Source: a virus. From it: a DNA stretch of 64,000 nucleotides. The stretch spans positions 42,481 to 106,480 of the IMG/VR virus record IMGVR_UViG_3300000216_000003. One strand, given 5' to 3'. This document shows positions 14,686-62,371 of this stretch, one piece after another (the first letter of the stretch is position 1; each line of letters starts with the position of its first letter). A model generated the notes under the pieces. It saw only the letters and a list, made by a program, of their open reading frames with translations, was not told the origin of the DNA and did no database searches. The position numbers were made by a program, and so were the translations under genes.

Positions 14686-14704
14686 GATATATAGATATAA
14701 TATA
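14686..14704 (+). promoter_or_regulatory. Phage promoter motif, operon from 14,741
   Basis: GATATATAGATATAATATA directly after a terminator. Confidence 0.8.
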
Positions 14705-19215: not shown

Positions 19216-19401
19216 ATGAAACTGAACGTAACAAAAAAAGAATTAAAATTTTTAGATGTTACAGATACTATTATTATAGAAACTAGAGATAAAAAATTAT
19301 TGAAAATAAAGCCTATTGGAAAAGGGTTTAATATTAGTATCGATGATATTATATACGATGTGAGTGATGGAACCATTAAAAAAATAGGGACTAATGATTA
19401 A
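19216..19401 (+). CDS. Hypothetical 61-aa beta protein
   Basis: Compact strand-rich protein (TDTIIIETRDKKLLKIKPIG), overlapping the start of the RNAP beta' gene by 8 bases and therefore probably translated with it. Confidence 0.6.
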   Translation: MKLNVTKKELKFLDVTDTIIIETRDKKLLKIKPIGKGFNISIDDIIYDVSDGTIKKIGTND

Positions 19402-22400
19402 TAAACAAGATCTACCTGAAATTACATCATCAAAATTATATTTAGATAGTAAGAAGTCGCAAGTAGATCAAGCCGGTTTAATTTCTGAAATTGCCTTTGG
19501 ACCGGTTAAATCTTATAAATGCTCATGTGGTAATCTTAATTCCAAAGTTATTCATGAGAATCAAAGATGTATTAAGTGTAAAGTGGAATGTATTGATAAT
19601 GCTTCTAGGTATACTAGATTTGCTAAAATCAGTTTACCATTTCCAATACTCAAAAAACTCGAAAGACAAAAACTACTCAAATTTGTAAAGCGGAAGAATG
19701 CACACATATTAGATCCGGTTCAGTCAGATCGACTAACAACTACATCATTTTATATTCAATATATTAAAGATACAGATAAACTGGAATTAGTTACTGATTA
19801 TGATGCTGGAAACTGTATACCATTAGTAATAACTGGCTTATTTACATTATATTTAGGATTGTATATTGCACAAGTATACTTTACTTCTAAATCAGCAGAA
19901 GAACTATTATCTAATTTCTTTTTTGATCTTTTAGTTGTCCCTCCAAATACACGTATGTCTATACTTGTAGAGAAGGATAGTAAGATGACTATGATCACTC
20001 ATGAATTAGATAATATTTATATTAAAATTCTAAGACTAAAGCATTATTGCACTAAGTTTGATACATATCAACAGATTCGAGAATATACTGATATGATAAT
20101 TCAATCATTAGATAATAAGATTGGGATTCCAATTACTGATGATATTTTAATTACATTTGATCAATTAACAAGTAAAATTACTTATTATTGCGATGATGTA
20201 TATTCTCATATTACAGGAACTCTTAGTGGAAAGACTGGGTTGATTCGGGATCAATTTTTAGGTAGATCTATTGACTTTAGTAGCAGAGCAGTAATTGTAC
20301 CAGATCCAACTTTAAAAGCTCATGAAATAATAATTCCTCGTAAGATATTCTTAAAACTATGGCTTATAGAATACTATAGATATTTAAGAACTATGCTTAA
20401 AGATGAATGGGCCACTCTTCAGACAGCGAAGATATTATCATCAGTTACGAAGACAGAAAATTCATATACGAATGAATTAGAATATGTTGATGAATTTATT
20501 GAATACTTTTTTAGAGAAAGTGACTATAGACAACGAATTGTACTCGTAAACAGACAACCGACATTGTGGCGATACGGTATGCCCGGAGTTATTGTATCTG
20601 GAATTACAGAAGAGAATGTAATTAAAATTAGCCCTATTAGCACACAACCATTAAATGCTGACTTTGATGGTGATACATATGCTCTTTATCGGTTACATGA
20701 TAGAGGAGCTATTCAAGAAATATCGCAAAATGCTTACACTTTAAATAATATTCAATATGATCATAATACAGCATATCTTAATACTTTATCAATGGAATCT
20801 AAATATAGTTTTGTTCTTCTAACTTACTCCAAGATAAATAATGATTTAGAATATATCACTATAGATTCTTTAAAATCACTACCAATATATGAAGAACCAG
20901 AGTTAAATAAATTAGTACTATTTAATAAGAAGAGATATTCATATGGAGTATGTCTATTAAATAAATGGTGTGGATTTGATAATATTATACTAACTAAAGA
21001 ATCATCATCTGATGATCTTTCGAAAGAAATACATAAAGATAGTTTGTCTAATGAAGATTACTTTAATAGAATAAATAAAGTAAATCAATTGTTAAGTTGG
21101 TTGGTATCTACTCATTCAAAGGAAACATTAACTTTACCTTTTAACGAAGCAATTACTATTGTACATAGTGCACGTGAGAATCATCTTCTCCAACATCTAC
21201 CATCTAATCCACATATAGGGCATCAAGTACATCAAACTTTTGTAAATGATGCATATAAAAATATTCCGGAAGAGTTTAAACTTGCCAAATTAGCCAAGTC
21301 TAAATATAATAAAGTACAATTTTCAAGATCTCTTGTATCTATTGGATATATTGCAGATGATAGAAATATCATCTCACCAGAACCAGTAACGACTGCTCTA
21401 CTTAGTGGATTAACTGAAGAAGAATTTTTCAGAACATCATATGGAAGTCGTAAAGGTATTGTTGACAAGCATGATGCAACACCCCGGTCTGGATACTTGG
21501 AAAGATCATTAGTATTAAACTTATCTCCCATCGAGATAGCAGAAGAAGATTGTAACTCTACTCATGGATTTATGATTAAAATACAAGATATTAGACATTC
21601 TAAAAGTCTAAAGAATAGATATTATAGTAATAATACTGGTTGGGTATTATTTGATGGTGGAGCAGAACATGTTGGAAATAGTTATTCTTTTAGAAGTCCT
21701 ATTACATGTGCCTCTCCAAACTTTAAGATTTGTCAAAAATGTTTTGGTAGATATGAACAACGCTCTAAATTTGTAGGAATATTAGCCGGCCAATATATTG
21801 CTGAACGACTGACTCAGCTAAGTATGAGATCATTTCACACAAGTGGAAGTGCTACACTACCAGTGAACAATAATATAGAAACATTTATTAAAAATCATTT
21901 AGTTGAAATTGTTAATTATGATGATCATTGTAATTTAATATTCGATATTAAAGTAGATAATCATACATATCAAGAGTTTAAGAAAGTTGAAGGCTTTGTT
22001 AAGACAGCGAATTATGATAATATTCTTAGTTATTCTAATACTGGAGAAGTAGACAATTCAGACATTACAAAAGTCATTCAAGATATCAACAATCTACTCA
22101 ATACAGATAAGAACCCTAACCTAGCAGAAACTTATAGTAGTTTTATTACTAATACACTTTCTGTGGGTGATATCTATTCTGTTTACTGTGAAATTGTATT
22201 GGCTAATTTGTTTGTCAATAAAGATAATGTTGTGCTTAGATATGCTCTTGCAAATAGTGCTGATCCGAAAGATTGGGTTGAATATAAGAAATATAGTATT
22301 AGAGAAGTGCATAGTATTTTATCTTCTACATTATCTTTACTATTTCAACCAAATCATAAAACAATAAAGAACTTATATCGTAAACTACAAACAGGTACTG

Positions 22401-22447
22401 TTGATGATGTTAGTATCTTTGAAAGAATATGGGCTAATAAATTATGA
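19394..22447 (+). CDS. Multisubunit RNA polymerase beta' subunit, single chain
   Basis: 1017 aa. In order: N-terminal zinc ribbon (CSCGN...CIKCKVEC, ~residues 35-60); switch/rudder region GLIRDQFLGRSIDFSSRAVIV; the double-psi beta-barrel VNRQPTLWRYGMPG and catalytic loop NADFDGD (~421-427) that holds Mg2+; bridge helix region GSRKGIVDKHDATPRSGYLERSLV; and ICQKCFGRY..GILAGQYIAERLTQLSMRSFHTSG, covering the second zinc cysteines and trigger loop. All catalytic elements are intact in one polypeptide, unlike phiKZ-type phages where beta' is split. Together with beta pieces at 32,858 and 35,415 it forms one complete phage transcription enzyme. Confidence 0.93.
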   Translation: MINKQDLPEITSSKLYLDSKKSQVDQAGLISEIAFGPVKSYKCSCGNLNSKVIHENQRCIKCKVECIDNASRYTRFAKISLPFPILKKLERQKLLKFVKRKNAHILDPVQSDRLTTTSFYIQYIKDTDKLELVTDYDAGNCIPLVITGLFTLYLGLYIAQVYFTSKSAEELLSNFFFDLLVVPPNTRMSILVEKDSKMTMITHELDNIYIKILRLKHYCTKFDTYQQIREYTDMIIQSLDNKIGIPITDDILITFDQLTSKITYYCDDVYSHITGTLSGKTGLIRDQFLGRSIDFSSRAVIVPDPTLKAHEIIIPRKIFLKLWLIEYYRYLRTMLKDEWATLQTAKILSSVTKTENSYTNELEYVDEFIEYFFRESDYRQRIVLVNRQPTLWRYGMPGVIVSGITEENVIKISPISTQPLNADFDGDTYALYRLHDRGAIQEISQNAYTLNNIQYDHNTAYLNTLSMESKYSFVLLTYSKINNDLEYITIDSLKSLPIYEEPELNKLVLFNKKRYSYGVCLLNKWCGFDNIILTKESSSDDLSKEIHKDSLSNEDYFNRINKVNQLLSWLVSTHSKETLTLPFNEAITIVHSARENHLLQHLPSNPHIGHQVHQTFVNDAYKNIPEEFKLAKLAKSKYNKVQFSRSLVSIGYIADDRNIISPEPVTTALLSGLTEEEFFRTSYGSRKGIVDKHDATPRSGYLERSLVLNLSPIEIAEEDCNSTHGFMIKIQDIRHSKSLKNRYYSNNTGWVLFDGGAEHVGNSYSFRSPITCASPNFKICQKCFGRYEQRSKFVGILAGQYIAERLTQLSMRSFHTSGSATLPVNNNIETFIKNHLVEIVNYDDHCNLIFDIKVDNHTYQEFKKVEGFVKTANYDNILSYSNTGEVDNSDITKVIQDINNLLNTDKNPNLAETYSSFITNTLSVGDIYSVYCEIVLANLFVNKDNVVLRYALANSADPKDWVEYKKYSIREVHSILSSTLSLLFQPNHKTIKNLYRKLQTGTVDDVSIFERIWANKL

Positions 22448-26627: not shown

Positions 26628-29600
26628 TTGAAATTACAAGATGCATCCAAAGTTATTTATGAACAAAAATATCAATTAAAAGATTTACATGGAAATCAAG
26701 TTGATAAAGATGTAAATGATACATTTAGACGAGTGGCTAAAGCAGTCGCTAGTGTAGAAGTTAATATGCCAGTAAAATGTAATATATGCTTTGGTTCAGG
26801 CGTATGTGTAAAGCCATTAATAGCCCCAGAACCTCCAGATGTACCATGTCCTAATGGATGTAAAAAATCTGAAGGAGATTTTGATTTAGTAACATTCTGG
26901 GAAGGACAATTTAACTGGGCACTAAATAATGGACTACTTGGCGCTGGTCGTATCATGGCTAATGCTGGAGCCGAAGAATATAAACCAGGGACAAGTCTAA
27001 TTAATTGCACAGTTTCAGATACTATGCCTGATAGTATGGAGGGTATCTTTAAAGTATTGAATCAAGCAGCACTTACACTGAAAAGTGGTGCCGGAATCGG
27101 TTATGAATTTAGTACCCTTCGCCCAAAAGGTGCGATGGTTAATGGTGTGGGGGCAAGTACCTCCGGACCTTTGAGTTTTAGCGACATATTTGAGGCGATG
27201 TGTCGGACGATTAGTAGCGCCGGCGGTAGACGTGGAGCTCAGATGATGACGTTTTCAATTTCACATCCTGATATTGAAGAAGTTATTAATGTTAAACGTG
27301 AAGATGGTCGTCTTCGCAAGTTCAATATTTCCATTCTTATTACTAAAGATTTTATGGAAGCAGTTAAAGATGATGCTGATTGGGATTTATATTTTCCAAT
27401 GTCTAAGGCTGAGGATCCGACTAAAGTAAAGACTATTGCTAAAGAATGGCCAATATACGATAAAAATCATCTATATTATGAATCTCCTGAACCTGAAAAT
27501 AAAAGAGAAGCTATTTGCAGGGTATATAAAACTGTTAAAGCCCGAGATTTATATAATAAGATAATGAAATCTACTTATGATTATGGAGATCCCGGATTTA
27601 TTCTAATTGACGAATATAATGATAAGAATAATCTATGGTGGGCTGAACTTATTAGAGCAACTAACCCGTGTGGTAGGTAAATTGTTTGCCTCACGTTAAA
27701 AAATTCTGTTAATTGCTGGAAGCCTTAACTGGTAATCAGCAGCCAAACCTAATTAATAGTAGGAAGGTTCAGAGACTACAGGTAATGACATCAATTTAAA
27801 GGAAAGTAATTCCAATGGAAATACTAACATCAAAACAGATTAAAAAAATAATTTTAGGTATTTTAGTATCTGATGGGTATATTATAAAAGAACAAAGATT
27901 TGGGTTTGGAAATAAATCAAAAGAATATGTTGATTATACAAAGAGTGTATTGGATCAAATAACTGGTGTGAATTCAAGTATTACTAAACGATTTTATAAA
28001 AATTACAGTACTACTGGGCATCAATTAAACAATACAAATAAACATCCTTATTTTCGAAAACTACGCAAGATCTTTTACCCAAATGGGAAAAAAACACTTA
28101 CTCCATACATCTGTAATAGATTAGATGCGCAAGCATTTGCCCATATATGGATGGGAGATGGTACGTTGAAACATACAAAAAACAGAGTAAAAAATACTAT
28201 TCAAAATAATGGTATTCTCTGTTTAGAGAGTTTTACAATTCCAGAATTAGAATTATTAGTTAATCGTTTAAATTTATTTAATATCCATTCAACACTTATA
28301 AAAGTACCATGGGGACATGGATACAGAGTTCGTTTTATGGGACCACATTTACAAAGATTTATGTCTTTGGTGTATCCTTATATATTGGATGATTTCAAAT
28401 ACAAGACTCGTCTATATTATAAAACGAAATTATATGTTGATATGTCATTACCGAATGCAGAACATTATGTGATAGAATATTCACATATTGATGATATAGT
28501 CCGATCTTCTTAGAAATAAGAAGTTAACATTTTGGAACAAGGTTTACCCGCCCATGGAGCATGCTTACTTGGCTCTATTAATTTAACTCATTTTGTTAAT
28601 AACCCATTTAGTATTAATCCGCAATTTGATAGTGAAAAGTTTAAGAAAGTCATCGCTATTGCTACAAGATTCTTAGATAATGTTGTTGAAATTAATGGAC
28701 TCCCATTAGATGAGCAACAGAAAGAACTATATAGAAAACGCAGACATGGTCTGGGTATTGCTGGACTTGGAAGTACACTATGTATGTTAAAAACTAAATA
28801 TGGCTCACCAACTGCTATTAAATTCACAGAAAAAATAACTAAGATTATGGCAATTCAAAGTTATGAAACTGGTGTTGAATTAGCAAAAGAAAAAGGTGCT
28901 GCTCCTATTTTACTTGAAACATTTCCAATTAATTTTGAAATTGAAAATCGTTTAGAAGAAGCTGGTATGGATTCTGACTATATTAGTTTAAGTTCTCCAA
29001 AAGAAGGGGAAGTTAAAGGTAGTTGGCTTATGGCATCTTCGAAGTATTTTAAAGATTTTCCAAAACAGTTAGTAGATGATATTGGAGCATATGGTTGTAG
29101 ATTTAGTCATGCTACTAGTATTGCACCAACAGGTACTATTAGTTTAAGTTTCTTTAATAATTGCAGTAATGGAATTGAACCATCATTTAGTCATTATTAT
29201 CAACGTAATATTATTAAAGAAGGTAAAAATACTAAAGATATGGTAGATGTTTATAGTTATGAAATTCTAAAATATAAAGAATTTCTAGATAATACTGATA
29301 ACCCCCATACAGTAGTAGATAATAAGATTGAAGATATTATTGCTAATGGATTACCTGATTACTTTGTAGCTGCGCATGATGTTTCTCCAAAAGAACATAT
29401 TGATATGCAAGCCGCAGCTCAACGATGGATTGATTCAAGTATCAGTAAAACTGTAAATATCCCTACTGATTATCCATATGAGAAATTTCAAGATTTATAT
29501 ATGTATGCTTACGAACAAGGACTTAAAGGATTAGCAGCATATAGACATAATCCTGACGGTGGTCAAGTAGGCGTATTAGTAAAGAAAGATGAATTAGCAA

Positions 29601-29740
29601 AGCAGAAATATAGATTTAATCTTGAAGATGGTTCAACTGTTGAATTATCTGGTGATGAAGAAATTGAATATGATGGACAAATGCATAATGTTGCAAATCT
29701 TCACGAGTCACTAAAAGAAGGGTTGTATGGCAAAATGTGA
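26628..29740 (+). CDS. nrdJ: Class II (B12-dependent) ribonucleotide reductase, main subunit, intron-split
   Basis: Exon 1 26,628-27,674 and exon 2 28,535-29,740 join to a 750-aa protein; TTG start with AAGGA upstream. Exon 1 shows LINCTVSDTMPDSMEGIF and SGAGIGYEFSTLRPKGA, exon 2 CLLGSINL and CSNGIEPSF; the join rebuilds the active-site motif NPCGEQ. The residues around the substrate cysteines match adenosylcobalamin-dependent NrdJ, which reduces ribonucleotides using B12. An N-terminal Cys cluster (CNICFGSGVC...PCPNGC, ~residues 50-80) looks like a DnaJ-type zinc site and is unusual. The C-terminus lacks the redox cysteine domain, which is encoded separately at 31,374. Confidence 0.93.
27675..28534 (+). 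other. Group I intron in nrdJ (860 nt)
   Basis: Exon 1 ends in T (GTGTGGT) and the intron ends in G (TTTTG), as in group I introns. The P7 strand GTTCAGAGACTACA is at 27,767-27,780; GACTA (27,774-27,778) can pair with TAGTC (28,497-28,501) within GATATAGTCC, the usual partner. The second P7 strand lies inside the last codons of the endonuclease ORF, so the ORF has invaded the ribozyme periphery. Splicing restores NPCGEQ exactly. Confidence 0.9.
27815..28513 (+). CDS. LAGLIDADG-type homing endonuclease (intron-encoded)
   Basis: 232 aa. Two LAGLIDADG-like helices: LGILVSDGYI near the N-terminus and HIWMGDGTLK in the middle, both keeping the metal-binding acidic residue. RBS AAAGGAAAG upstream. 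Expected to cut intronless nrdJ at the exon junction and so spread the intron. Its 3' codons double as part of the intron's catalytic core. Confidence 0.88.
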   Translation: MEILTSKQIKKIILGILVSDGYIIKEQRFGFGNKSKEYVDYTKSVLDQITGVNSSITKRFYKNYSTTGHQLNNTNKHPYFRKLRKIFYPNGKKTLTPYICNRLDAQAFAHIWMGDGTLKHTKNRVKNTIQNNGILCLESFTIPELELLVNRLNLFNIHSTLIKVPWGHGYRVRFMGPHLQRFMSLVYPYILDDFKYKTRLYYKTKLYVDMSLPNAEHYVIEYSHIDDIVRSS

Positions 29741-30047
29741 TCATTCTGATCTATTGAGCCTTGATGAAATGCCTTCGGCTTCGGTCGAAGGTACTTCTGA
29801 AAATAATGATTATACTTTAGAAATTAAAGGGAAAACAATATATATTCCAAATACTCATCTTGTTGGTATTGGATTAATATGTTCAATGATTGATATTAAT
29901 GGTTATCCTATGTATAAATCATTAAAGAGAAATGGCCCAGTATTGGATCAAGTTATAAAAAAACAGATATTAACAGTATTACTAGAAACTGAATCCGAGT
30001 CTAATTTTAAAAATGAAATAACTAGAGAATTATTGGAGTTAAATTAA
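29727..30047 (+). CDS. Small LELN-tail protein 1
   Basis: 106 aa. Overlaps the NrdJ stop by 14 bases. Beta-rich front (YTLEIKGKTIYIPNTHLVGIG) and helical end EITRELLELN. Paralog of the next gene in its second half. TTATTGGAGTTAAATTAAATG at the end holds the ribosome site of the following gene. Confidence 0.65.
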   Translation: MAKCDHSDLLSLDEMPSASVEGTSENNDYTLEIKGKTIYIPNTHLVGIGLICSMIDINGYPMYKSLKRNGPVLDQVIKKQILTVLLETESESNFKNEITRELLELN

Positions 30048-30356
30048 ATGTTAGAAATAGGCGGTTTTAAAGTACAAGCGAATGGTAGAATATTAATTTA
30101 TAGTACCCCGTCTGGGCGAAATAATGGAATATATAAAGCTATGATACAAAGAATGTCTGTCCGGGAAATACGTGAATCTATTGATAATTGTTTATATGGA
30201 ACTGGAGATAGTATGATATATGGTATATTAACAGAAGTTATTTATAGAATCCATAATAATGCAGATAAAATACTTGTTATTAAAGGGGTATCTCCTCATA
30301 TTGAATCATCTAAATATAAGAATAAAATTACTAAACAATTATTGGAGTTAAATTAA
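30048..30356 (+). CDS. Small LELN-tail protein 2
   Basis: 102 aa. Opening GGFKVQANGRILIYS parallels ENNDYTLEIKGKTIYI of the gene before; tail KITKQLLELN ends with the same 20-plus bases, again providing GGAG for the next gene. Tandem duplicate, unknown function. Confidence 0.65.
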   Translation: MLEIGGFKVQANGRILIYSTPSGRNNGIYKAMIQRMSVREIRESIDNCLYGTGDSMIYGILTEVIYRIHNNADKILVIKGVSPHIESSKYKNKITKQLLELN

Positions 30357-30605
30357 ATGCCACTTTATGGATTTAAATGTGAAGGTTGTAATTACGAAGA
30401 AGAAATTGCAGCTAAAATAGCAGATAGAGATAAACCACAACTATGCCCAAGTTGCAAATTATGTAATATGAAAAGGGATTTATTAATTGGAGCAGTAGTG
30501 TATAGCAATAGAATGTTTAGGGCTATTACTAAAAGCGATACTCCAACAGAAAAACCAAGTCGGACAGCGGTGAAGAAGCATTCAAGATATGCTGGCGAAG
30601 ATTAA
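30357..30605 (+). CDS. FmdB-like zinc-ribbon protein
   Basis: 82 aa. MPLYGFKCEGCNYEEE ... LCPSCKLCNMKRD fits the FmdB-type zinc ribbon (CxxC...CPxC) found in small regulatory proteins. Last gene before the tRNA. Regulatory role is a family suggestion only. Confidence 0.7.
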   Translation: MPLYGFKCEGCNYEEEIAAKIADRDKPQLCPSCKLCNMKRDLLIGAVVYSNRMFRAITKSDTPTEKPSRTAVKKHSRYAGED

Positions 30606-30621
30606 CGTTTTAAAAGATCTA

Positions 30622-30637
30622 ATATAGATATTATAAT
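30622..30637 (+). promoter_or_regulatory. Phage promoter motif for tRNA
   Basis: ATATAGATATTATAAT ending 4 bases before the tRNA 5' end, so transcription would start at or just before the mature end. Confidence 0.7.
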
Positions 30638-30641
30638 TTTT

Positions 30642-30719
30642 ACTCCAGTAGCTTAAAGGTAAAGCCGCCCGCTCATAACGGGCCGAGTGCATACGGTTCG
30701 AGTCCGGCCTGGAGTACCA
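30642..30719 (+). tRNA. tRNA with CAT anticodon (Met or Ile2 type)
   Basis: 78 nt. Acceptor stem ACTCCAG/CTGGAGT, discriminator A, encoded CCA. D arm GCTTAAAGGTAAAGC, anticodon arm GCCCG-CTCATAA-CGGGC, T loop TTCGAGT. The T stem has only three clear pairs (CGG/CCG) as I fold it. CAT could be elongator Met, initiator or lysidine-modified Ile for AUA codons, which are abundant in this AT-rich genome. Confidence 0.85.
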
Positions 30720-30749
30720 TAAATTACCAATGTTGTAATCATTATTAAC

Positions 30750-30797
30750 ACTAGTCTTAGACTTCAAAACTCTAAGGCTAGTATTATTTTTATTTTT
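30750..30797 (+). terminator. Intrinsic terminator after tRNA
   Basis: ACTAGTCTTAGA paired with TCTAAGGCTAGT (one mismatch) then ATTATTTTTATTTTT. Confidence 0.85.
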
Positions 30798-30820
30798 ACA
30801 ATGACTCTAAAAGGAATAAT

Positions 30821-31081
30821 ATGACTCACCCAAATGGACCAGTTTTTTATATAAACACTGAATATGCACTTCCCAATATATTAACTGAACAAGAAAAAAA
30901 AGCATATATTAATATTATATTATTTGCAAAAAAAGATAAAAAGAAATATGATATGTTGACTCTTATTACTCGTGAATGTCGAAATAAAGATAAAAAAGAT
31001 ATGTTAACACTTTTATATTCACATATTAAGAAGAATAAAATCAAAAAACTCATTCTAAAAGATATAAAGGAATTATCATGA
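30821..31081 (+). CDS. Hypothetical Lys-rich protein, 86 aa
   Basis: Lys/Ile-rich helices (KKAYINIILFAKKDKKKYDM), ending KDIKELS. AAAGGA ribosome site; overlaps the next gene by 4 bases. Function unknown. Confidence 0.6.
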   Translation: MTHPNGPVFYINTEYALPNILTEQEKKAYINIILFAKKDKKKYDMLTLITRECRNKDKKDMLTLLYSHIKKNKIKKLILKDIKELS

Positions 31082-31377
31082 GTTACGAAGGTACTGAAGA
31101 AATTCTATGTGAAAATGGACATCATGAAGCATTTGATTGTTATATGGCTCCAAATCTTAATAGTTGGAAATGTGGAGTATGTGGTAAAAAAGCAGTCTGG
31201 TGGAATGCAATCGATGAGACTAATGGCATCGATGAAGATACTGGAGTTTGTCCTGGTACTGTTGAATTAGAATTAGTAAAAGATTCGAATGAACCTCTTA
31301 CAACTTGTCCGACATGTAAATGTAATACATATAAAATTCCAGTTTATAAAATACCAGAATTAGGGAGAAGAGATTGA
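31078..31377 (+). CDS. Double zinc-ribbon protein
   Basis: 99 aa. CENGHHEAFDC, CGVCGKK and TCPTCKCN give at least one C-x2-C pair on each side of an acidic middle (NGIDEDTGVCPG). Small nucleic-acid or protein-binding zinc protein; role unknown. It overlaps the NrdJb gene by 4 bases. Confidence 0.65.
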   Translation: MSYEGTEEILCENGHHEAFDCYMAPNLNSWKCGVCGKKAVWWNAIDETNGIDEDTGVCPGTVELELVKDSNEPLTTCPTCKCNTYKIPVYKIPELGRRD

Positions 31378-32006
31378 CATTATCACTATCCAGTAAAATT
31401 GTATCGTCAGAGTTGTTAAAAAATGATAATCCTTCAATTATAGTAAAACCCGAAAGTACTAATCAACTTACAATTATTGAGAGACCTGATTGTTTAGATG
31501 GTAGTACTTATAAACTTAAAACCCCTTTAACTGAACATGCTCATTATATTACAATTAATAATATCGAGATTGAAGGCAAACTTTATCCATTTGAAATATT
31601 TATTAACTCAAAACAAATGTCGGCTCAGGAATACGTAGTCGCACTAACACGGGTTATTTCAAGTGTATTTAGAAATTCTCTTCATTTTAAAGATGGTGCT
31701 ACTTTTCTAGTTGAAGAATTACAGGCTGTATTTAGTCCTGGTGGGGGATACTTAAAACAAGGTAGGAGAGTACCATCTATTATTGCTGAATTTGGAGATG
31801 TTCTTGAAATCCATTTAGAAAAAATCGGATGTGTGCCAAAACCAGAAGAATTGCCTGAATATGTACAAGAAAAACGGAAGCAGGCATTAAACACTCCTGG
31901 AATAATTGCAAATGCCAGTCAGTGTTTAGTTTGTCTGAAGATTGCCGTTGTCCGAATGGATAATTGTGATACTTGTCTGGAGTGTGGTGATGGGAAGTGT
32001 GGTTAA
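31374..32006 (+). CDS. NrdJb-like C-terminal domain of class II RNR, separate gene
   Basis: 210 aa, TTG start with GGGAGAAGAG upstream. RPDCLDGSTYKLKTPLTEHA, PFEIFINSK, ALTRVISSVFRNS, VEELQAVFSPGGGYLKQG and the terminal cysteines CLVC...DNCDTCLECGDGKCG match the C-terminal (TSCPD-type) domain of NrdJ, which carries the redox/zinc cysteines. In some bacteria such as Pseudomonas the enzyme is likewise split into NrdJa and NrdJb. Here the two genes are 1.6 kb apart with a tRNA unit between. Confidence 0.85.
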   Translation: MTLSLSSKIVSSELLKNDNPSIIVKPESTNQLTIIERPDCLDGSTYKLKTPLTEHAHYITINNIEIEGKLYPFEIFINSKQMSAQEYVVALTRVISSVFRNSLHFKDGATFLVEELQAVFSPGGGYLKQGRRVPSIIAEFGDVLEIHLEKIGCVPKPEELPEYVQEKRKQALNTPGIIANASQCLVCLKIAVVRMDNCDTCLECGDGKCG

Positions 32007-35414: not shown

Positions 35415-37331
35415 ATGATTATATCATCTGCACTTTCATCAATTCCATTAATATCATTAACGGATTCAACTAGACTACAGATGTCTTCTAAACAACTAGG
35501 GCAATGTGTTACACATGTTAATTGTCGCCGACCATATGTAATTGGAGATGATTGGAAATATTTATCTCATAGTACAGCTATGTCTAAAAAAGTAGCCGGT
35601 GTGTCTGGAAATATTGTATATACAAATGATGATATTATGGTGGTTGTATTTGATAATAAACCAGATCTTAAAATAGAAGTATTTGAAATACCAACTGTAA
35701 TGTCTACTGCTTTTAGTTTTGGAAGTAAACTTAGATATAAAAGAGATCCAGGAGAATTTGAAAAAGGGGATTTACTTTTCGAATATGATAATTTCATCGA
35801 AAATACCCCCTGCTACGGATATAATGTGAATGTTGCTTTCATGCCTTGGATGGGATTTAACTATGAAGATGCCGTGGTTATCAGTGAAAGTCTAAGTCAT
35901 CTTTGTCGCTCTCTAAAGAAAGAAACGATAACAATTCCTATATATAGTCATACATTATTAAAAAGTCTATATAAAGATAGTAAATACCAATTCATACCTG
36001 AAGTTGGGCAAGAGATAAATAAACGAATATTATCAACTGAATACATTCCAAGAAGTTCAAATAAAAAACAAGTTCTTCAATCATTAAACTTAGTAGATTT
36101 CAGTTTGATTGGAGATAATGACTTCCAGTTTAATAGTCAACACATACTATCAAAATTAAACAATGCAAAAATATCTAGAATTAAGGCACATAGAATTAAT
36201 CCCAATATAAAAGCATTAGATCCAAATCTACAAACAATAGTAGATATGTTATGTTCTGAATATAAAATCAATAATGCACAGATATACCAGGATGTTGCTT
36301 CATTACTTGGAAAAGATTATGCTAAGAAACTAATCAGTAACCATTATATAATGTTGAAACCATCTATAAAGACAAATGATTTAATTGCAGTATTGGAGAT
36401 TGATTTAATCAAAGATAGTGCAACTGAAGTAGGAGATAAATTCGCTAATCGCTTTGCAAATAAAGGTGTTGTATCTTTAATAATACCAGATGAGTTACGA
36501 CCATTGGATAATTCTGGTAACCCCATTGATATGATACTTAGTCCGCTCTCAGTATTCAGTAGAATGAACTTAGGACAACTACTAGAAGGTCTCATAGGAA
36601 AAGCAATACGAAAGGCAGAAGAACAAATTAAGAATGGCGATGTTTTCGCCCCTCTTGAAAATATTGCTAAATTATCAGACGCTATTGGTACGACTAAATA
36701 TAGTATTGAAATAAGAGAATTACTAGAAACTGTTAAAACCAATCAACAACTATTAGATAAATTTATTAGATCTGTAGAGATTGGTGGGTTATACTTTGAA
36801 GTACCAGGATTTACTAATTTTGATACTAAAGAAATTTACGATACTGTTAAAGAGTTGTTTGATGTTACTCCTAATGATAATATAACAGCATCCAAAGAAC
36901 TTCTTACATATATGAGAACAAAATTACAATTAGAAAATGATATTGCATTACCAACTAAAGATGTAATATATAAAGATATTTTCAATGCTCCAATATATAC
37001 ACTTAAACTTATGCAGTTATCAGAAAGTAAGTTAAATGCTAGAGACTGGGGAGAATATAGTGCTAGTAGCAAAACCCCTACTATTAAAGGTAAAAGTAGT
37101 ATTGGTAAAGCATCTAGAATTGGCAATATGGAATTCGACGCACTACTTGGTCATGATGCTATACAAGCAGTTAAAGAGATTAGAACTGTAAAGTCTGATG
37201 CGTTACATCTGAAATCAGACTTAGTTAATCAAATGCTTAATACTGGAACCTATAATTTACCAAATGATAAATCTAAATCATATACCAAAACCATCATTGA
37301 TAGTTTAATGGTATTTATAAACGAAAACTAA
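35415..37331 (+). CDS. RNA polymerase beta subunit, C-terminal part
   Basis: 638 aa. LTDSTRLQMSSKQLGQCV replaces the DDANRALMGSNMQRQAV region; FMPWMGFNYEDAVVISES matches the conserved 'AFMPW.GYN.EDAI..SE'; VGDKFANRFANKGVVSLIIPDELRP matches 'GDK.AGRHGNKGV.S.I.P.EDMP' with basic active-site residues; LSPLSVFSRMNLGQLLEG matches the end-hybrid motif. Functional half of beta that joins the 32,858 product. Confidence 0.92.
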   Translation: MIISSALSSIPLISLTDSTRLQMSSKQLGQCVTHVNCRRPYVIGDDWKYLSHSTAMSKKVAGVSGNIVYTNDDIMVVVFDNKPDLKIEVFEIPTVMSTAFSFGSKLRYKRDPGEFEKGDLLFEYDNFIENTPCYGYNVNVAFMPWMGFNYEDAVVISESLSHLCRSLKKETITIPIYSHTLLKSLYKDSKYQFIPEVGQEINKRILSTEYIPRSSNKKQVLQSLNLVDFSLIGDNDFQFNSQHILSKLNNAKISRIKAHRINPNIKALDPNLQTIVDMLCSEYKINNAQIYQDVASLLGKDYAKKLISNHYIMLKPSIKTNDLIAVLEIDLIKDSATEVGDKFANRFANKGVVSLIIPDELRPLDNSGNPIDMILSPLSVFSRMNLGQLLEGLIGKAIRKAEEQIKNGDVFAPLENIAKLSDAIGTTKYSIEIRELLETVKTNQQLLDKFIRSVEIGGLYFEVPGFTNFDTKEIYDTVKELFDVTPNDNITASKELLTYMRTKLQLENDIALPTKDVIYKDIFNAPIYTLKLMQLSESKLNARDWGEYSASSKTPTIKGKSSIGKASRIGNMEFDALLGHDAIQAVKEIRTVKSDALHLKSDLVNQMLNTGTYNLPNDKSKSYTKTIIDSLMVFINEN

Positions 37332-54671: not shown

Positions 54672-55949
54672 ATGCAGTTACAATTATTAGATGTAAATCG
54701 TTTTATTGATAATAAAGGACTACAAGAGGTCACTTCTACAAAGCCTCCTAGTGCCCATGGTTTTGAACTAGGATCATTATGGGATCCTCAAATTTTTGGA
54801 CAAGTTGGTAGTTTTGATAGACGTAGTAGGTTTGCATATATAAATCTAAAGACTAAATTAATACATCCACAAGCATACTCTATTCTTAAATCTACTTCTG
54901 AATCTATTAATAAAATTATGAGTCAGAAAGCGGCATATGTTGTTCAGAATAAAAAATATATTGAAGATGAAACAGGAGAAACTGGATTATCTTTCCTAAT
55001 TAGAACTCTCAATGATGTAGATATAACTACAATTGCAAAAAAAGATAAGATAGCTGATGCTGAGTTTCTACAAAAAAATAAAAGATTAATTCTTGTTGAT
55101 AAGTGGGTAGTAATGCCAGCTGGATCTAGAGATATTGATATTAGTAGGAAAAATGCCCAGGCGACAATGTCTGAAGTAAATGAATTCTATAAGCGACTCA
55201 TATACCTTAGTGGGGAAATCAGTGGTGAAGAAAGCTATGACGCTATTATTATAGATAAACTTCAAAAAACTCTTCAACAAATTATATCATGGGTAAAAGA
55301 TTCCCTTAAGGGTAAGAAAGGTGTATTTAGATCTAATATGCTAAAGAAAACGTTAGATTACTCTACTCGCCTAGTATTAACATCGTCCCCTGGTGTAAAT
55401 CTGGGGGAGATTGGTCTTCCTTGGTCTACTCTGGTCTTGATATATGAGCCTATTATATCTCATTATGTGTTTAAAGATGATTCTGATATTTTACCCGATA
55501 TCAAGAAATCTATGAATAATGAAAATAATATAGACTATCATGACCTTCATAAATTTTTAGAAAGTGTTAATAAAAATCCAGATTTGATTGATATTGACCT
55601 TAAAACTAAATTAATTAATATTGTGAATATTATTATTAAAGATGCACAAGTTATTTGTAAACGTGATCCTGCAGCCTCACGGGATAGTTGGTTTGCAGCG
55701 AAACCAATCATTACAGATGGTCGGGTAGCGGTTGTTAGTTCACTTGATTTGAAGCCTATTGGAGGTGATTGTGATGGAGACACTTTAGAAATTTTACCTC
55801 TATTTACAGAAGAAGCGAAAGAGCAAGCTAAGAAAACTATGAATCCCCAACATTCAAAATCCAAATGGAATAATACTATCAATTCAGGAAGATCTACATA
55901 TTCTATTAATGATGACGCAGTCTCTACTATTTTTGCAACTACAATGTAA
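54672..55949 (+). CDS. Second RNA polymerase beta', N-terminal fragment
   Basis: 425 aa. KGVFRSNMLKKTLDYSTRLVL matches 'GRFR.NL.GKRVDYS.R.VI'; near the end GGDCDGDTLEI keeps the D.DGD catalytic triad (NADFDGD in bacteria, Phe replaced by Cys) at ~residue 365. The chain stops ~60 residues later, before the bridge helix. Distinct from the single-chain beta' at 19,394, so a second polymerase is encoded. In phiKZ-like phages one of two such enzymes is packaged in the virion. Confidence 0.88.
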   Translation: MQLQLLDVNRFIDNKGLQEVTSTKPPSAHGFELGSLWDPQIFGQVGSFDRRSRFAYINLKTKLIHPQAYSILKSTSESINKIMSQKAAYVVQNKKYIEDETGETGLSFLIRTLNDVDITTIAKKDKIADAEFLQKNKRLILVDKWVVMPAGSRDIDISRKNAQATMSEVNEFYKRLIYLSGEISGEESYDAIIIDKLQKTLQQIISWVKDSLKGKKGVFRSNMLKKTLDYSTRLVLTSSPGVNLGEIGLPWSTLVLIYEPIISHYVFKDDSDILPDIKKSMNNENNIDYHDLHKFLESVNKNPDLIDIDLKTKLINIVNIIIKDAQVICKRDPAASRDSWFAAKPIITDGRVAVVSSLDLKPIGGDCDGDTLEILPLFTEEAKEQAKKTMNPQHSKSKWNNTINSGRSTYSINDDAVSTIFATTM

Positions 55950-57839: not shown

Positions 57840-58940
57840 ATGACATTAACAACATTAGAAGAAGTATATGAAGAATTAAAAAAAGAAGAAGTTACTATTA
57901 ATTCTATCTATTCCTTTAGCCATCCTAAAAAGACTAAAGGAAAATCAAATAACATGAAGATTGGTAGAATATGGTTTAATATATTATTACCAGATAATTT
58001 TCGATTAATAGATGAAGCTGTCAATAAACAAGTATTAGGCGATATTATTTCTGAAATAGGAAAGAAGTATGAGCCAATGGAAGCCTCTAGAGTTGTATCA
58101 TTAATAAATAAAGAAGCTTTTAAAATGTCTAGTATTAATCCTGTTAGTTTTAGTGCGACAGCTTTTATCTTACCAGAACATATAAAAAAGAAGAAAGAAG
58201 AGATTGTATCGAAAGAACTGGATGCAGTTGAATTTAATGTTCAAATATTAAAATTGGTAAATGAATTAATAGATCATATGAAAGATAATGACGAAGGATT
58301 ATATAAATTCATAATGTCTAAAGCTAGTGGTAAAGCAAGACCTCAAGATATTGCTCTATTATTACTTGCTAAAGGGGCCGCAGTAGATATTGAGAATATC
58401 ACATCTCCAGTTTCTACAAATAGTGTTACTGATGGATTTACTCTTAAAGAGTTTTATAATAATGCGGCTGAGGCTAGAGGAGCACTATTTATTAGATCTT
58501 CTGGTGCCGCCGAACCGGGAGCATTGGCTAGAGATGTAGTATATGCTAATTCAAATACTATGATTGAAGGTGATGACTGTAAGACAAAAAAATATTTAAA
58601 TGTAGTAGTGACAGCCTCTATTGCTAATACAATTAAAAATAGATATTATATTAATCCCAAAACAAATGCATTAGATACTATTAAAGACCCCTCAAAATTA
58701 ATTGGAAAAACTATACAACTAAGATCCCCATTATACTGCAAACAAAAAAATAATAACATATGTAAAATATGTTATGGTGAACTTAGTAAAAACATCGATA
58801 CTAAATACATCGGGGTTCTTACCTCAGCTATTATTAATACTGAAGGATTAGAGGGTTACGCTATGGCTGCCCGACATTCGGCTAGTCGAGTAAGTAAACA
58901 AAAGACAGATTTTAATAAAGATATGATACAGTTGGTGTAA
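57840..58940 (+). CDS. Second RNA polymerase beta', middle fragment
   Basis: 366 aa. LKEFYNNAAEARGALFIRSSG...GALARDVVY...IEGDDC parallels the bridge-helix region; QLRSPLYCKQKNNNICKICYGEL matches 'RSPLTC....GVC.KCYG' (zinc cysteines); IGVLTSAIINTEGLEGYAMAARHSAS is a degenerate trigger-loop region. The C-terminal rest is probably the gene at 62,395. Confidence 0.8.
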   Translation: MTLTTLEEVYEELKKEEVTINSIYSFSHPKKTKGKSNNMKIGRIWFNILLPDNFRLIDEAVNKQVLGDIISEIGKKYEPMEASRVVSLINKEAFKMSSINPVSFSATAFILPEHIKKKKEEIVSKELDAVEFNVQILKLVNELIDHMKDNDEGLYKFIMSKASGKARPQDIALLLLAKGAAVDIENITSPVSTNSVTDGFTLKEFYNNAAEARGALFIRSSGAAEPGALARDVVYANSNTMIEGDDCKTKKYLNVVVTASIANTIKNRYYINPKTNALDTIKDPSKLIGKTIQLRSPLYCKQKNNNICKICYGELSKNIDTKYIGVLTSAIINTEGLEGYAMAARHSASRVSKQKTDFNKDMIQLV

Positions 58941-61624: not shown

Positions 61625-61680
61625 ATAATGTTAACGGCGGGATTACTAATATGAGTCAGAAACAATTTTTTCAAAGTTTT

Positions 61681-61696
61681 GATATAGATATAAATA
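61681..61696 (+). promoter_or_regulatory. Phage promoter-like motif before tmRNA
   Basis: GATATAGATATAAATA preceded by TTT (one base off the consensus TATAAT). It gives a short leader, then the gene at 61,738 and the tmRNA. Confidence 0.6.
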
Positions 61697-61737
61697 AGTA
61701 TCAAAAACGTCTGTTAATTAACTCAGAGGAGAGTAAG

Positions 61738-61860
61738 ATGGAATCAAAAGATATGTGTGACTGTGAAGAAACATGTGCAACTTGTCTTTGCCAAGAAAAA
61801 CCTAAGCCGGAAAATCCGGTAAAGTATGAAATGGATGGTATTGATACTATTTGTTTCTAA
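61738..61860 (+). CDS. 40-aa Cys-rich peptide upstream of tmRNA
   Basis: Start placed at ATG 61,738, 6 bases after GAGGAGA. The frame is open back to 61,651, but that part is written by the promoter motif. MCDCEETCATCLCQ gives five cysteines in 12 residues, metallothionein-like or a metal knuckle. Co-transcribed with the tmRNA. Confidence 0.55.
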   Translation: MESKDMCDCEETCATCLCQEKPKPENPVKYEMDGIDTICF

Positions 61861-61873
61861 ACTAGTCTTAATT

Positions 61874-62231
61874 GGGGGTGTACTGGTTTCGACAGGGTAG
61901 TGAACGATGATTAGGCGACTCGGTATAGTGCTACCGTAACAGGCTAAAACTTTAGGTGCCAATGATGAATTCTACGCACCTGTTGCTCTCGCTGCTTAAA
62001 CAGTAAAGAGTAAACGGCGCCCGTCCGGGCGTGGCAACAGAAGGTCGTAAGACCAAATACAAGCTGGATAATAGCCGCCAGTTAATCAAAAGGGCATCGT
62101 GCATCATGACGGTACATGAGTCGAAGAGGATTGCTAGGTTCTTTAGACTATAATACTAGCAAAATAGTCGTATATCCTGATTAATTAAATAGTTATTCTG
62201 GACGCGGGTTCGATTCCCGCCACCTCCACCA
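61874..62231 (+). ncRNA. ssrA: tmRNA (ssrA), complete one-piece
   Basis: 358 nt. Acceptor stem GGGGGTG/CACCTCC with the G3-U wobble that marks alanine tRNAs, encoded CCA, T arm CGGGTTCGATTCCCG, and the conserved 5' GGTTTCGACAGGG. Tag frame at 61,958-61,999: GCC AAT GAT GAA TTC TAC then GCA CCT GTT GCT CTC GCT GCT TAA, i.e. ANDEFYAPVALAA, with a ClpXP-type LAA end. Pseudoknot stems (GCCCGTCCGGGC region) follow. It would rescue stalled ribosomes and tag products, using host SmpB, as no smpB is seen here. Confidence 0.95.
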
Positions 62232-62240
62232 AACAACCTT

Positions 62241-62268
62241 AAAGAGTAAGTAACATTACTCTTTTATT
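62241..62268 (+). terminator. Intrinsic terminator after tmRNA
   Basis: AAAGAGTAA/TTACTCTTT and TTATTT tail. Confidence 0.88.
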
Positions 62269-62290
62269 TGACATTATAAAGAGGTTAATA

Positions 62291-62371
62291 ATGTTACAGT
62301 CAATTTTAATCATATCTTTATTTATTATTATAGTTGTGATTATTATATATTCTAACAATTTAAAATATTAA
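62291..62371 (+). CDS. 26-aa membrane peptide
   Basis: MLQSILIISLFIIIVVIII then YSNNLKY; single membrane helix, AGAGG ribosome site upstream. Lies after the tmRNA terminator with no promoter motif of its own. Confidence 0.4.
   Translation: MLQSILIISLFIIIVVIIIYSNNLKY

Follow-up and report, generated by a model that had tools for sequence, protein, structure and literature searches.

According to our analysis, a divergent jumbo-type phage, represented by a 106,480-nt fragment, carries a complete one-piece tmRNA gene (ssrA). The window referred to below is the whole stretch that was analyzed, the last 64 kb (64,000 nucleotides) of this record. We consider it quite probable that the gene is a working phage ssrA which entered the phage long ago from a Magnetococcia-like host, has since been maintained by selection and would add ribosome-rescue capacity. 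Phage tmRNAs as such are already known; here the setting is new, namely the phage lineage, the link to Magnetococcia and the apparently intact transcription unit. The features on which this reading rests are collected in Table 1.

Table 1. Features of the tmRNA unit and RNA polymerase gene matches (positions within the window).
Feature	Position	Strand	Evidence and remarks
Phage promoter-like site: T-rich -35-like element; ATATAGATATAA at 61682-61693	61662-61697	+	Weight matrix
40-aa Cys-rich ORF MESKDMCDCEETCATCLCQEKPKPENPVKYEMDGIDTICF, 6 Cys, CxC-x3-CxxCxC	61738-61860	+	Open frame; AGGAG 6 bases before ATG
One-piece tmRNA (ssrA), CCA encoded	61874-62231	+	ARAGORN, RF00023, helices; 358 nt
Tag reading frame ANDEFYAPVALAA and TAA stop	61958-61999	+	ARAGORN
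AT-rich terminator-like hairpin, 9 pairs, T-rich tail	62241-62272	+	-9.2 kcal/mol, z -4.66
RNAP beta family match	19394-22447		PHROG
RNAP beta family match	35415-37331		PHROG
RNAP beta family match	54672-55949		PHROG
RNAP beta family match	57840-58940		PHROG

The sequence-only reading had proposed a complete tmRNA with G3-U, TTCGAC and a tag ending in LAA, and this was borne out by ARAGORN, by the Rfam model and by inspection of the helices. ARAGORN called a non-permuted tmRNA with the tag ANDEFYAPVALAA, the sole tmRNA in the record, and RF00023 spanned the gene end to end (114.6 bits with a gathering score of 47, E 4.8e-44). All seven pairs of the acceptor stem are formed, including G1-C354, G2-C353 and G3-U352, and the tRNA-like domain has UUCGAC, a T arm with 5/5 pairs (GCGGG/CCCGC) and the encoded CCA. 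The long P2 helix is complete (22/22 pairs), H5 comprises 7+3 pairs, and the stems of PK1 have 5 (S1) and 4 (S2) pairs. The first stems of PK2 and PK3 are present, and their second stems were not recognized with confidence. PK4 has both stems (S1 6, S2 7); the pairing GAAGAG/UUCUUU is the phage counterpart of the PK4 of Magnetococcia, an assignment that rests on comparison with the relatives, as this pairing alone was not beyond chance (153/400, scored by length with G-U allowed). A strict Watson-Crick pseudoknot, GACUAU/AUAGUC, was rare in shuffled sequences (2/2000) but is probably not the true PK4 stem, since it overlaps P2d, which covaries across the relatives. A match to the permuted model RF04321 at 61805-61999 can be put down to the common 5' half; the gene itself is non-permuted according to ARAGORN. 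The GC content of the tmRNA is 46.6%, compared with 32% and 28% in the kilobases on either side and a window mean of 30%.

The divergence of this RNA is considerable, its best identity to any relative being 63%, and despite this all core helices are intact. In an alignment of 24 sequences, the 32 pairs examined in six helices were standard in 96% of cases, and covariation scored 0.195, whereas shuffles gave 0.100 and slid controls did not exceed 0.060. The P2 helix covaries in this alignment, and one of its pairs is A-U in the phage only and G-C in the 23 others. Because the helices were kept despite divergence, together with this phage-only exchange of A-U for G-C, the comparison indicates that selection has acted on the phage tmRNA at the level of the RNA. 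The compensated helices also show that a phage-borne tmRNA can retain its RNA structure through long divergence.

The organization of the locus supports the reading of the 40-aa ORF and the tmRNA as one transcription unit between a phage promoter motif and the terminator-like hairpin. When k-mers of intergenic DNA were compared with those of coding DNA, the motif ATATAGATATAAT, together with a T-rich element upstream of it, stood out as strongly enriched; examples of the motif are found at window positions 14689, 18554, 47029 and 61682. With a weight matrix built without the site of the tmRNA unit, 29 promoter-like sites of the 106-kb record scored above a clear gap; this site came 27th (17.7 bits), the final T of its -10-like element being the position at which it differs from the consensus. 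For a random point on the + strand, the chance of finding such a site in the 200 bases upstream is about 2.8%. The sequence-only reading had assigned the tmRNA its own promoter-like motif. Around the gene itself this was not upheld, as generic sigma-70 matches were not above chance (5 found vs 7.5 expected); the convincing promoter candidate is the phage-wide motif, which lies upstream of both genes and just outside the stretch 61738-62231 to which that reading applied. Its proposal of a transcript shared with a Cys-rich peptide is supported at the level of sequence, with one promoter motif upstream and one hairpin downstream. The 40-aa ORF is nested in frame within a 69-aa ORF starting at 61651, and the shorter start is favored because the phage promoter falls inside the longer frame. 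The tmRNA begins 13 bases past the stop of the 40-aa ORF. No known relative of the Cys-rich peptide was found, and the 69-aa frame had no Pfam or PHROG match. Right behind the hairpin there is a 26-aa hydrophobic ORF, MLQSILIISLFIIIVVIIIYSNNLKY, at 62291-62371.

The genes of the record are those of a jumbo-type phage. PHROG matches revealed the phage-type split beta/beta' genes of a multisubunit RNA polymerase, and further genes encode ribonucleotide reductase, NAD-dependent ligase, homing endonucleases and a virion structural protein. The beta' N-terminal protein had 22-30% identity in alignment to its counterparts in seven other jumbo-type phages, and searches with single RNA polymerase proteins found no close phage relatives. 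The tmRNA unit is preceded by a SLOG-domain gene and a second gene without a named product, and followed by a PDDEXK nuclease gene and again a second gene without a named product. Elsewhere in the window, the large subunit of ribonucleotide reductase is split into three pieces (26628-27680, 28532-29740 and 31374-32006; region 26628-32006). The first gap holds pieces of a group I intron (27701-27807 and 28489-28521) and a LAGLIDADG endonuclease gene (27815-28513). Between the second and third pieces lies a tRNA with the CAU anticodon (30642-30719), which has a GC content of 58% and is immediately preceded by a further copy of the promoter motif found upstream of the tmRNA unit (region 30622-30719).

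The nearest tmRNAs give a clue to the host. When 399 evenly drawn genomes of Pseudomonadota were searched at the DNA level, the three best matches (80-81% over the 3' quarter) all belonged to one small class; in a search of 369 Gammaproteobacteria, none reached 1e-10. Within this class, 33 of 48 genomes matched the phage tmRNA at 1e-5; the tmRNAs of the class are one-piece, 360-369 nt long, with the tags ANDEHYAPALAAA, ANDEHYAPVLAAA, ANDEFYGEALAAA and similar. One member (G095, tag ANDEHYAPAFAAA) has a gene for a sodium channel that matches PDB 5hvx without any difference over 275 residues, and 5hvx is NavMs of Magnetococcus marinus (PMC5316852). On this basis, the class is taken to be Magnetococcia and the member to be M. 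marinus. When a tree was built that also held further one-piece tmRNAs, all from within the same phylum, the phage sequence grouped with 24 Magnetococcia with a support of 100/100 on a long branch; placements inside and beside the Magnetococcia clade both fit (AU p 0.44). Given the scope of this tree, the kinship of the tmRNA hints with moderate confidence at a Magnetococcia-like host of the virus. In the literature searched, we found no phages of magnetotactic cocci.

The tag has 13 residues, with an ANDE-Y start and a small hydrophobic C-terminus. Its resume codon is GCC, with UAG at positions -5 to -3, and the A at -4 is invariant in the 24 sequences. The N...Y residues and the L-A-A end of tags are read by SspB and ClpX, as established by work on E. 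coli. Since the phage tag retains these elements of the usual proteobacterial pattern, it looks like an ordinary degradation tag. At the same time, all 24 Magnetococcia tags end in -AAA, whereas the phage tag ends in -LAA; because of this difference, a changed protease fate of the tagged peptides is possible, and we treat it as a lead for the protease idea and not as evidence for it. The sequence-only reading had suggested using the tag to find the host. Taken together, tag and RNA are those expected with a Magnetococcia-like host, although the collection scanned for ANDxxYAPVA forms (85k bacteria and archaea, one genome per species) yielded no identical tag, and the exact phage tag was absent from the viral contigs searched. 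Two candidates from the ANDxxYAPVA scan, Stenotrophomonas (tag ANDDNYAPVALAA) and one pond proteobacterium MAG, were rejected as close kin, as their RNA bodies failed to align. A single ANDExYAP match in the viral contigs had no tmRNA.

Taking the steps from processing to tagging from established tmRNA biology, we predict the following course. Transcription from the phage promoter would yield a short transcript with the 40-aa ORF and the tmRNA that ends near 62272, and RNase P and exonucleases would trim it to the 358-nt tmRNA. The host alanyl-tRNA synthetase would charge the RNA via G3-U. SmpB was not found in the 106-kb fragment, so the host SmpB is the simplest partner that may bring the tmRNA to stalled ribosomes. 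There it would free the ribosomes and append the tag, after which the broken peptide would be degraded (ClpXP type). The likely benefit is more ribosome-rescue capacity while infection cuts or damages mRNAs.

Other readings of the locus have to be weighed against this one. Another bacterial group, outside the sampling here, could be both the gene source and the phage host with the function unchanged, and we allow this an appreciable chance, although we do not favor it. It accords with the AU result and with the fact that sampling outside Pseudomonadota was a single tag-pattern scan (ANDxxYAPVA), and the tmRNA of phage Melnitz offers a precedent, being foreign to its host (PMC9004378). The concentration of the three best matches in one small class and the failure of all 369 Gammaproteobacteria searched to reach 1e-10 argue against it. 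The possibility that the phage tag replaces that of the host, sending rescued peptides to different proteases or adaptors, appears unlikely. Both the uniform -AAA ends in Magnetococcia and the tag of phage G, which also departs from the LAA form, are in its favor; however, the phage tag is of the canonical proteobacterial type, a form shared with Stenotrophomonas, the -AAA tags come from Magnetococcia and may not be those of the true host, and drift or loss of constraint would yield the same difference. We also regard as improbable the more specific scenario in which a jumbo phage of magnetotactic cocci supplies a tmRNA with a changed degron (-LAA vs host -AAA) and so reroutes the products of stalled ribosomes to different proteolysis.

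It is highly unlikely that the RNA is a decoy sequestering host SmpB or EF-Tu and thereby blocking host trans-translation. The nearly bare tRNA-like domain of mycobacteriophage DS6A has been discussed as such an inhibitor (PMC4131195), but the phage RNA has kept its tag frame, resume signal, H5 and the pseudoknots PK1 and PK4, features that would be superfluous in a decoy. We also see very little room for a bacterial gene that was recently captured or misassembled and is functionless in the phage. The GC content, foreign to the genome, would fit such an origin, yet stable RNAs are often GC-rich, phage genes flank the tmRNA on both sides and a phage promoter motif lies upstream. Moreover, 63% identity with compensated helices suggests long residence under selection instead of recent capture.

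The preferred reading, a working ssrA of long residence, has several implications. It offers a testable host (Magnetococcia) for a jumbo-type phage that is deeply divergent and uncultured, and the contrast of -AAA in the putative host with -LAA in the phage makes it directly testable whether phages alter the fate of tagged peptides. It also adds a tmRNA to a phage lineage in which 16 other large phages (15 picked by RNA polymerase matches and one by ligase, with phage G as positive control) and 80 viral contigs that carry related beta' genes yielded none at the cut-off. Many of these contigs are fragments, and absence from them is therefore weak evidence. The permuted-tmRNA model, run over 70 of these phage and contig records, found none, and the sub-threshold matches in other phages that were inspected proved to be tRNAs. 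A search of viral contigs with the 5'-end pattern led to eleven loci, each of which was called as a permuted tmRNA of another type. Among viral contigs, two (L002 and L007) carry permuted tmRNAs of the cyanobacterial type among tRNA genes, and a third (L005, 146 kb) has a permuted tmRNA with the tag ANDEVFLMAA.

Of 18,146 phage genomes, 402 (about 2%) have a tmRNA (PMC9004378), and such genes are known in phage G and mycobacteriophages (PMC4131195) as well as in huge phages (PMC7162821). In phage Wildcat, the tmRNA is the most expressed lytic gene (PMC7474061), which indicates that a phage can invest heavily in it. The present gene resembles those of the mycobacteriophages Bxz1 and Wildcat and of Bacillus phage G in being a complete tmRNA of a lytic phage (PMC4131195; confirmed here for phage G, L077 1501-1809, tag AKLNITNNELQVA without the LAA end), whereas the phage lineages and host types are different. 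As in methylophage Melnitz, the phage ssrA is taken as a clue to host ancestry, but the ssrA of Melnitz is permuted and two-piece, with a glutamine riboswitch (PMC9004378), whereas the gene described here is one-piece with a small ORF before it. The virus shares phage-encoded multisubunit RNA polymerases with the phiKZ/AR9-like jumbo phages and differs from them in the low beta' N-terminal identity and in having a tmRNA, as none reached the cut-off in the relatives searched. In comparison to the Magnetococcia type, the phage tmRNA is of similar length, likewise one-piece, and has the same core helices and a 13-residue ANDE-Y tag; it is distinguished by its sequence divergence, the -LAA end, a shortened PK4 loop and its position in a phage behind a phage promoter motif.
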